A DNA stretch of 64,000 nt, taken from NCBI RefSeq assembly GCF_029266855.1, contig NZ_JAQSWB010000002.1:372001-436000 (forward strand), read 5' to 3'. The DNA comes from Fluviicola sp. (GTDB lineage: Bacteria; Bacteroidota; Bacteroidia; Flavobacteriales_D; Crocinitomicaceae). Numbering within the stretch: the first letter of the stretch is position 1; each line of letters starts with the position of its first letter. The translations under genes and the position numbers were made by a program. This document shows positions 49,208-50,333 of this stretch, in pieces. The notes beneath the pieces are model-generated. The model was given only the letters and a program-made list of their open reading frames with translations, was not told where the DNA came from and ran no database searches.

Positions 49208-49471
49208 TTATTGGTCCGTTTTCCTGGTTTTCCAATTCTCATACAATTCACTGATCTTTTCTACCAAACGGTGATCGCGTTTAGTGATTTTCTGCTGATC
49301 GTGTGAGTAAACCGAGATACTCAGTTCACTGCAATGCCTGATTGTTAAATCCGGATGATGATCCATTTGATCTGCTAATTGTGCCACTTCGACCAGGAAG
49401 AAAGCAAGTTCTGTTTGGTTTGCGAATTCTACGACGGTTCTAAATCGATTCGCTATGATGCTCCAGTTCAT
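49208..49471 (-). CDS. phhB: Pterin-4a-carbinolamine dehydratase
   Basis: An 87-residue enzyme that dehydrates 4a-hydroxytetrahydrobiopterin, recycling the pterin cofactor used by phenylalanine hydroxylase. The motif QMDHHPDLTIRHCSELSISVYSH (in parts: MDHHPDL, ISVYSH) holds the conserved His-His-Pro and the downstream His. Length is slightly under the usual 95-110 residues, with a short N-terminus. The start overlaps the end of phhA by 32 bp, so the two are tightly coupled, consistent with the paired function. Confidence 0.92.
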   Translation of the reverse strand: MNWSIIANRFRTVVEFANQTELAFFLVEVAQLADQMDHHPDLTIRHCSELSISVYSHDQQKITKRDHRLVEKISELYENWKTRKTDQ

Positions 49472-50183
49472 GAGAGTATAATTTAGTAAGTGTTTCTATT
49501 GCTTTTTTTAATTGTGAAATATCTTCAATCACGAAGTATTTCTGTTGGATCTCGCTCGTGCAAAAATCCGTTTGAAGAATGGTTTCCACCTTGAATTCGG
49601 AATGGGTCGTTCCCTTTGTAGAAATACTTGAGATGGATTCGTGAAAAGAGGAAATGATTCCCGCTCCGAAAATACGTAGTTTGTTTTCTTCCGAAATCAG
49701 TCCGAATTCAATGGTAAACCAATACAGGCGCTGTAATTCCACTAAGATACGTGAATCATGGCTAAACCGCTTGCCCAGCATTCCGAACTCATGAACAAAT
49801 TCCGAATACCCCGGATTGCAAAGCAAGGGAATATGCCCGAAAATATCGTGAAACATGTCCGGCTCTTCCAGGTAATCAAGTTTCTCTTTTGAACGCAGCC
49901 AGGTAGACGAAGGAAATTTCTTTTCCGACAAAAGGTCGAAAAATTCCTCCACTCCGATCAATCCAGGTACACAATAAATTTCCCAGCCTGTACTCATTTT
50001 AAACCACTCATTGATGCGCTCGAAATTGGGTAATTCCATTGGGTTCAGCACCTTTCTCATCTTTTCCAGTGATTCCAGGTAATCGGAACATGCCTTTTCC
50101 TGCAGGTTATTCACTTGCCGCTCGAACAGCAGCGACCATACGGCCAAATCCTCACTGGTGTACTTTTCAAATTCTTGTTCCAT
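49440..50183 (-). CDS. phhA: Phenylalanine 4-monooxygenase (aromatic amino acid hydroxylase)
   Basis: A 247-residue non-heme iron enzyme of bacterial length (catalytic domain only, no ACT regulatory domain). It makes tyrosine from phenylalanine with tetrahydropterin and oxygen. GWEIYCVPGLIGVEEFFDLL and FPSSTWLRSKEKLDYLEEPDMFHDIFGHIPLL (parts) hold iron ligands His112 and His117; YWFTIEFGL supplies Glu159. Its start ATG lies 18 bases past the T-run of a terminator hairpin, which in turn follows a Tyr-rich leader ORF (see 50259-50321), so expression is predicted to be controlled by attenuation. Confidence 0.93.
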   Translation of the reverse strand: MEQEFEKYTSEDLAVWSLLFERQVNNLQEKACSDYLESLEKMRKVLNPMELPNFERINEWFKMSTGWEIYCVPGLIGVEEFFDLLSEKKFPSSTWLRSKEKLDYLEEPDMFHDIFGHIPLLCNPGYSEFVHEFGMLGKRFSHDSRILVELQRLYWFTIEFGLISEENKLRIFGAGIISSFHESISSISTKGTTHSEFKVETILQTDFCTSEIQQKYFVIEDISQLKKAIETLTKLYSHELEHHSESI

Positions 50184-50203
50184 TTCAAAAAAAATTAAAT
50201 AAA

Positions 50204-50233
50204 AAAAGCCCGATTCATAAGAACCGGGCTTTT
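50204..50233 (-). terminator. Attenuator terminator hairpin of phhA
   Basis: On the minus strand a 13-pair stem (AAAAGCCCG plus GTTC against GAAT plus CGGGCTTTT, one G-U) with a TTAT loop, followed by a run of T. It ends 20 bp before the phhA ATG. Its 5' arm includes CGGTTCTT, which can instead pair with GGGAACCG in the leader ORF. Confidence 0.8.
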
Positions 50234-50258
50234 CAGCTATAAAAGTTTACATAACGAC

Positions 50259-50321
50259 TTATTCGGTTCCCTGGATTAGAAACTGATAATAATAAGTATT
50301 GCTATGCATGTGTTTGTTCAT
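50259..50321 (-). CDS. Leader peptide of phhA, Tyr-rich
   Basis: A 20-codon ORF, MNKHMHSNTYYYQFLIQGTE, ending TAA. Three consecutive TAT (Tyr) codons, then Gln and TTT (Phe), sit at codons 10-14, directly upstream of tyrosine-making phhA. The ATG is 4 bases after a perfect -7 box, so the transcript would be nearly leaderless. GGGAACCG (50264-50271), spanning codons for Gln-Gly-Thr-Glu, can pair with the 5' arm of the downstream terminator. A ribosome held at the Tyr codons would leave it free (antitermination); a ribosome at the stop codon would cover it (termination). Confidence 0.7.
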   Translation of the reverse strand: MNKHMHSNTYYYQFLIQGTE

Positions 50322-50325
50322 GAGG

Positions 50326-50333
50326 CAAATGTA
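50326..50333 (-). promoter_or_regulatory. -7 promoter box of the phhA leader
   Basis: TACATTTG on the minus strand, a perfect TAnnTTTG match, 4 bases before the leader ATG. Confidence 0.6.

Follow-up and report, generated by a model that had tools for sequence, protein, structure and literature searches.

The phhA-phhB genes of this Fluviicola sp. are very probably (a probability of about 0.87) preceded by a ribosome-mediated transcription attenuator that would couple their expression to charged tRNA-Tyr. The leader lies on the minus strand of the window, that is, the whole 64,000-nucleotide stretch of DNA analyzed here. Its sequence suggests that phhA would be turned on when tyrosine is short, and that phenylalanine hydroxylase (PAH) would make tyrosine and not just break down phenylalanine. 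We consider attenuation the best explanation of what was observed, namely the parts of the leader, their conservation, covariation and spacing, and the gene content. The parts of the locus are as follows.

50326-50333, minus strand: promoter −7 box TACATTTG, of the Bacteroidota TAnnTTTG type
50259-50321, minus strand: leader peptide ORF of 20 codons, MNKHMHSNTYYYQFLIQGTE, plus stop; conserved in relatives
50291-50308, minus strand: 5′ strand of helix S1, reaching into the first Tyr codons (from folding and covariation)
50286-50294, minus strand: run of three TAT (Tyr) codons, at which tyrosine would be sensed; no other residue is as enriched as Tyr
50264-50271, minus strand: putative antiterminator 5′ strand GGGAACCG, within the last leader codons (from pairing and covariation)
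50248-50263, minus strand: 3′ strand of helix S1, directly after the antiterminator strand (from folding and covariation)
50219-50226, minus strand: putative antiterminator partner CGGTTCTT, in the terminator 5′ arm and loop, pairing with GGGAACCG
50203-50234, minus strand: intrinsic terminator hairpin of 14 bp with a 4-nt loop (predicted −20.7 kcal/mol), then a T run
49440-50183, minus strand: phhA, phenylalanine 4-monooxygenase (PF00351; NF008877 above cut-off)
49208-49471, minus strand: phhB, pterin-4a-carbinolamine dehydratase (PF01329), overlapping the end of phhA
from 50525, plus strand: divergent ORF of 403 aa, on the strand opposite to the phhA leader, which we take to resemble sucC

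Most of these parts had been proposed in a sequence-only reading of the same DNA, and they were recovered at the same places. The −7 box is at 50333-50326 on the minus strand; the 20-codon ORF with Tyr-Tyr-Tyr runs from the ATG at 50321, 4 nt past the box, to a stop codon at 50261-50259, with its Tyr codons at 50294-50286; and the pairing between 50271-50264 and 50226-50219 indeed consists of six Watson-Crick and two G-U pairs. In the terminator hairpin, 14 pairs were counted instead of the earlier 13, and 19 nt separate it from the phhA start at 50183. The leader RNA folds more stably than its shuffles (z = −5.5), none of 200 of which folds as well. The PhhA protein matches PF00351 with 145.5 bits (cut-off 22.7) and NF008877 with 249.6 bits (cut-off 247), and stays under the cut-off of TIGR01267 (255.2 bits, cut-off 264.75). 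A known RNA family was ruled out for the leader: the Rfam cis-regulatory families, T-box included, have no match in the window at gathering score, and the 25 matches below threshold include Thr_leader, which scores 27.8 bits where 55 are needed.

The leader is not confined to the host. A PhhA protein search of 149 genomes, the host among them, gave 50 matches, 42 of which were taken as canonical phhA (set 1), the other eight (L046-L053) being distant or fragmentary. The upstream regions were scanned with a detector for a short ORF (GTG and TTG starts accepted) with at least two Tyr in five codons, followed by a terminator. Such a Tyr leader with terminator precedes 35 of the 42 canonical loci, the host counted, and 31 of the 42 when at least three Tyr in five codons are asked for. 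The detector found a Tyr leader at none of the eight loci L046-L053, which were excluded from later counts; five of these (L046-L050, in G009, G092, G020, G104 and G095) belong to a second type of aromatic amino acid hydroxylase, with longer frames (555-704 aa). A second set was drawn from a named-genome scan, in which the best 80 of 590 relatives gave 67 distinct upstream regions after exclusion of L126 and L156, whose upstream sequence is missing, and of 11 regions duplicating set 1. The combined set thus holds 109 distinct phhA upstream regions (42 + 67).

Among these 109 regions, 58 have at least three Tyr in five codons, compared with 1 of 327 dinucleotide shuffles and none of the 109 reverse complements. 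At the threshold of two Tyr, the numbers are 71 of 109, 17 of 327 and 4 of 109, respectively. Set 2 alone gives 27 of 67 regions at three or more Tyr and 36 of 67 at two or more. Hence, a Tyr leader followed by a terminator is found before phhA more often than expected by chance. Counting against the model, the leader is missing even at two Tyr from 7 of the 42 loci in set 1 (L009, L025, L031, L034, L040, L042 and L045) and from 31 of the 67 in set 2. Among the best 80 of the 590 relatives, it was found in Psychroflexus, Planktosalinus, Marivirga, Roseivirga, Echinicola, Solirubrum and others, and the detector did not find it in set 2 at the phhA loci of Confluentibacter, Emticicia, Spirosoma and several Algoriphagus. 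Within the Echinicola genus, 10 of 11 genomes carry it. An uncultured Fluviicola sp. record (L118) and the congener G008 both carry it. In two loci the distance to phhA is enlarged by a palindromic insert between terminator and phhA, with 19-bp exact inverted ends in L028 (1286-1451) and a similar one (13 bp) in L036, so that the terminator ends 279 nt and 240 nt before phhA, respectively. The phhA of L120, a record titled as an Actinomyces viscosus MAG, is 63% identical to the query, and this bin is probably mislabelled or contaminated.

Each part of the leader is simple when taken alone, and a chance short ORF ahead of an ordinary terminator might therefore be proposed. Runs of Leu (at least three in five codons) also exceed the shuffles (29 of 109 regions versus 18 of 327), a part of which excess arises because terminators are commoner in real regions (95 of 109) than in shuffles (125 of 327). 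The corresponding counts are 14 of 109 (shuffles 10 of 327) for Ser, 11 of 109 (10 of 327) for Ile and 5 of 109 (8 of 327) for Phe. It is evident that Tyr is far ahead and that no other residue comes close to it. The Tyr counts in real regions, shuffles and reverse complements, the conservation in relatives and the covariation in two sets described below refute such a coincidence, which we give a negligible probability.

The putative antiterminator was assessed by pairing the linker that joins the last Tyr codon to the terminator with the terminator 5′ arm of its own locus or of other loci. In set 1, own pairs reach a mean of −11.9 kcal/mol, compared with −9.0 (sd 0.54) for permuted pairs, and none of 20,000 permutations does as well; the units here were 18 groups from 17 genera, the genus of the host counting as two on account of its two types of phhA gene. 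In set 2, the 27 of the 67 loci with at least three Tyr in five codons, one of which (L193) was given a doubtful terminator, yield −12.6 versus −9.9 kcal/mol (sd 0.42; 0 of 20,000 permutations). Measured against shuffled linkers, 24 of the 35 set 1 leaders have an own pairing that ranks in the top 5%. Single loci are often ordinary, which counts against the model: measured against swapped partners, just 9 of the 35 rank that high. An alignment (A1, made with MAFFT) and a covariance model (R1) were built from 30 of the 35 leaders. The fixed-column count for the antiterminator in A1 is modest, with 68% of the cells paired and the value reached by 9 of 500 shuffles, and this also counts against the model; slid by one column, the antiterminator scores higher (76% of the cells paired). 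Because the registers slip between genera, a fixed-column count is a blunt measure on A1; for this reason, duplexes were computed locus by locus and compared with permuted partners.

The spacing is likewise narrow. In set 1, the antiterminator strand of 27 of 35 leaders begins 10-15 nt past the last Tyr codon, a gap that differs by one base in its counting between the covariation and the spacing analyses of that set, whereas shuffled linkers give 4.5 such cases (sd 1.9, maximum 10 in 300). In set 2, the same interval holds for 11 of 27 leaders (shuffled 3.0, sd 1.6, maximum 9 in 300), and 22 of 27 lie at 12-17 nt. Covariation is likewise seen in helix S1, which joins the Tyr-codon region to the stretch that directly follows the antiterminator strand, its value being reached in 2 of 20,000 permutations over 17 groups and in none of 20,000 over 26 loci, one of the 18 groups and one of the 27 loci having been dropped for a short segment. 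The comparison of phhA upstream regions that the sequence-only reading had proposed has thus come out in favor of its model, with the Tyr codons, the terminator and a covarying antiterminator conserved across genera and beyond the order. The present analysis extends that model by a second helix, also conserved, by the prediction that the leader mRNA is nearly leaderless, by a range that spans the phylum and by an apparent lack of phenylalanine synthesis in the host.

Two other readings of the RNA were weighed against these data. Helix S1 adjoins the antiterminator strand, covariation is seen in both, and the two helices could in principle coexist as a pseudoknot. An H-type pseudoknot antiterminator might then form without a ribosome, and the element would report leader translation overall, not just stalling at Tyr. 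However, stalling at Tyr accounts for the runs of Tyr codons and for the narrow distance from Tyr to antiterminator, and we regard the pseudoknot alternative as quite improbable. The strong terminator near the promoter box would also suit a free, terminated small RNA acting in trans, with read-through as an incidental product. Yet the covarying pairing is internal to the leader, and the sole R1 match in the host at E ≤ 0.1 is the phhA leader itself, which makes a small RNA very improbable.

How the attenuator may switch was explored by pseudoknot-free folding, under an assumed ribosome footprint that masks 15 nt upstream and 11 nt downstream of the A-site codon. With the mask on any of the three Tyr codons, the antiterminator is the best fold before the terminator 3′ arm emerges; it is absent when the mask sits at the stop codon or when the ribosome is left out. 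Counting against the model, the terminator is the best fold of the full-length RNA in all five states, the stalled ribosome included (−25.7 kcal/mol with the stalled ribosome, compared with −16.1 kcal/mol for the antiterminator state before the 3′ arm). Since the terminator wins on the full-length RNA, the modeled switch must be kinetic, and kinetic switching is usual for leader-peptide attenuators.

Sequence and folding together thus present tandem end-product codons in a leader ORF, a terminator, a covarying antiterminator, a control-codon helix and a spacing compatible with stalling, from which we infer leader translation, a start site, stalling, termination and a response to tyrosine. RNA polymerase would start at or beside the leader ATG, and a ribosome would begin the leader peptide from the near-leaderless 5′ end. 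With ample Tyr-tRNA, the ribosome would reach the stop codon and cover the antiterminator strand; after its release, helix S1 would enclose this strand, a protective role that is presumed for a helix involving the control codons. The terminator would then form and transcription would halt before phhA. With scarce Tyr-tRNA, the ribosome would stall at the Tyr codons and block S1, leaving GGGAACCG free to pair with CGGUUCUU before the terminator 3′ arm is made, so that phhA-phhB would be transcribed and PAH would convert phenylalanine to tyrosine.

The promoter box is shared by most of the leaders. Of 62 leaders, 49 have a TAnnTTTG in the 70 nt before them, compared with 4.4 expected from mononucleotide shuffles. 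The distance from the box to the leader start codon is most commonly 4 nt (14 of 62) or 5 nt (9 of 62), and it is 4-9 nt in 40 of 62. Because the start site is taken to lie a few nucleotides after the −7 box, the leader mRNA should be wholly or almost leaderless. The short distance from box to start codon suggests how bacteria that rely little on Shine-Dalgarno sequences could begin a leader peptide quickly enough for coupling to RNA polymerase. Such mRNAs appear to be rare in Bacteroidota, judging from the figures given for B. thetaiotaomicron, in which about 3.7% of 5′ UTRs are shorter than 10 nt (PMC7366714), and for F. psychrophilum, with 5.5% leaderless mRNAs (PMC9723704).

Leaders of the same build are also found before other amino-acid genes. 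R1 was scanned over the 149 genomes under strict filters, and 20 further sites were inspected, namely the 17 best full-length matches outside phhA and 3 sites picked upstream of prephenate dehydratase genes. Fifteen of the 20 sites are leaders of the same build, and 5 have no leader; the downstream proteins of the 15 were confirmed by Pfam in 10 cases and assigned by likeness in the remaining 5. Seven are His-rich leaders before hisG (L088, L089, L091, L096, L101, L103 and L104), and three, with Ile/Val runs read by eye, precede ilvE-like class IV aminotransferases (L090, L093 and L102). Four Phe-rich leaders precede pheA (L095, L105, L106 and L107), three of them at the picked sites, and one leader with Tyr-Trp-Trp precedes a DAHP synthase-chorismate mutase gene (L100). 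The leader codons match the product of the downstream gene, and phhA, with its Tyr codons, is therefore read as a putative tyrosine-making gene. As an observation of its own, the hisG, ilvE-like, pheA and DAHP synthase-chorismate mutase leaders suggest an order-wide set of leader-peptide attenuators.

The gene content of the host is consistent with such a role. Neither prephenate dehydrogenase (tyrA) nor prephenate dehydratase (pheA) has a match in the host genome (G000), nor does either have one in the congener G002, a single contig carrying the same leader. The lack of both matches in the host implies that its tyrosine is probably made from imported phenylalanine. Chorismate synthase and a DAHP synthase-chorismate mutase are present, so that prephenate may still be made, and cyclohexadienyl dehydratase (PheC) is an alternative to prephenate dehydratase; phenylalanine auxotrophy of the host is therefore apparent rather than certain. 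The contig with the DAHP synthase-chorismate mutase gene and its neighbor, which looks like aroA, opens with head-to-tail 11-bp repeats (L211:1-100, G000:C13).

The relation between the leader and tyrA was compared in 92 genomes, comprising all 42 of set 1 and those of 50 of the 67 set 2 loci (the 27 with at least three Tyr and 23 chosen, after near duplicates had been dropped, from the 31 without a candidate; nine loci with only two Tyr were left out). Of the 62 genomes with the leader, 8 have a strong tyrA match (E ≤ 1e-20, our choice), versus 13 of the 30 that lack the leader (P = 0.003, kinship ignored). Among the 149 genomes, canonical phhA is carried by 12 of the 19 that have a dehydratase but lack a strong tyrA, by 1 of the 7 having both, and by 29 of the 123 lacking a dehydratase (P = 0.07 and 0.0009 for phhA against these classes, Fisher's exact test, kinship ignored). 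In one relative, G102, phhA closes a trpC-trpF-trpB-trpA-DAHP synthase cluster and has no leader of its own (L108:8083-12963); its frame is short (205 aa), and trpB was assigned by a PALP match and its position. In G124, phhA likewise stands at the 3′ end of the same trp-DAHP synthase cluster, where both the DAHP synthase frame and that of phhA appear to be split (L109:152-5069).

A Tyr attenuator could be real and PAH nevertheless serve mainly for phenylalanine breakdown or phenylalanine/tyrosine balance, with Tyr sensing only stopping the enzyme when tyrosine is plentiful. HppD is present in 147 of the 149 genomes, which makes catabolic use of the product possible and counts against our model; the HppD gene of the host adjoins an HmgA-like gene that scores under its family cut-off; and the 8 leader-bearing genomes with a strong tyrA point the same way. 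However, a catabolic gene should sense phenylalanine, whereas the leader codons specify Tyr (in 58 of 109 regions, versus 5 of 109 for Phe); the Phe-rich leaders stand before pheA; host phhA and the HppD/HmgA-like pair are on different contigs; the phhA of one relative ends a trp cluster; and the host has no tyrA match. Control by phenylalanine as the main reading was rejected since the leader codons are Tyr, and we consider PAH mainly for breakdown unlikely. The biosynthetic reading of PAH, already put forward from the sequence, gains support from the missing tyrA, the product-matching leaders and the phhA that ends a trp cluster in one relative.

Bacterial PAH is usually annotated as a phenylalanine-breakdown enzyme. 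A conserved Tyr-codon attenuator indicates that the cell uses PAH for making tyrosine. On balance we lean toward the view that across much of Bacteroidota PAH is a regulated tyrosine-biosynthetic enzyme under a near-leaderless Tyr-codon attenuator, and that Fluviicola-like bacteria lacking prephenate dehydratase and dehydrogenase follow an animal-like economy, with phenylalanine uptake, tyrosine made on demand and the surplus burnt via HppD. The leader should help to predict tyrosine-prototrophic Bacteroidota and would make a simple reporter for tyrosine shortage, and an attenuated PAH explains how added tyrosine could be dispensable for species that lack tyrA.

The trp, his and pheA attenuators of enterobacteria consist of a short ORF with tandem end-product codons, a mutually exclusive antiterminator and terminator, and a control-codon helix. 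The phhA leader resembles them in all three respects. It differs from them in its target, PAH, which is usually called catabolic, and in its predicted near-leaderless mRNA, and the phhA leaders place the antiterminator strand in the last leader codons or just beyond the stop. The mechanism of attenuation is thus known, and for PAH as its target no report was found among open-licence PMC papers, though an older attenuator database or a supplement may contain such a prediction. Closest in phylum are the leaders of Flavobacterium psychrophilum, where leader-peptide attenuation was inferred upstream of amino-acid biosynthesis operons with TAnnTTTG promoters like those found here; the main text of that paper does not mention phenylalanine, tyrosine or phhA, and a phhA entry in its Table S7 is possible (PMC9723704). 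Putative attenuators of tyrA operons, including pheA>hisHb>aroA-aroQ>tyrA of Bacteroides thetaiotaomicron, share with the phhA leader the attenuation of tyrosine synthesis and differ in having tyrA as the target, and the same source describes control of Pseudomonas phhA by PhhR with a sigma-54 promoter (PMC1173090). That PAH may be run as a biosynthetic enzyme, as the sequence-only reading held, is supported here and is not new, since biosynthetic PAHs have been reported in Dyella japonica, Legionella pneumophila and Echinicola vietnamensis, the fitness data of the last showing PAH to be important in some defined media (PMC7311316). Those enzymes are, like the one studied here, a route to tyrosine, and differ in that the passages on them describe no regulation; at the genus level, the 10 of 11 Echinicola genomes bearing the leader agree with the E. 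vietnamensis PAH data, which supports the biosynthetic reading (PMC7311316).
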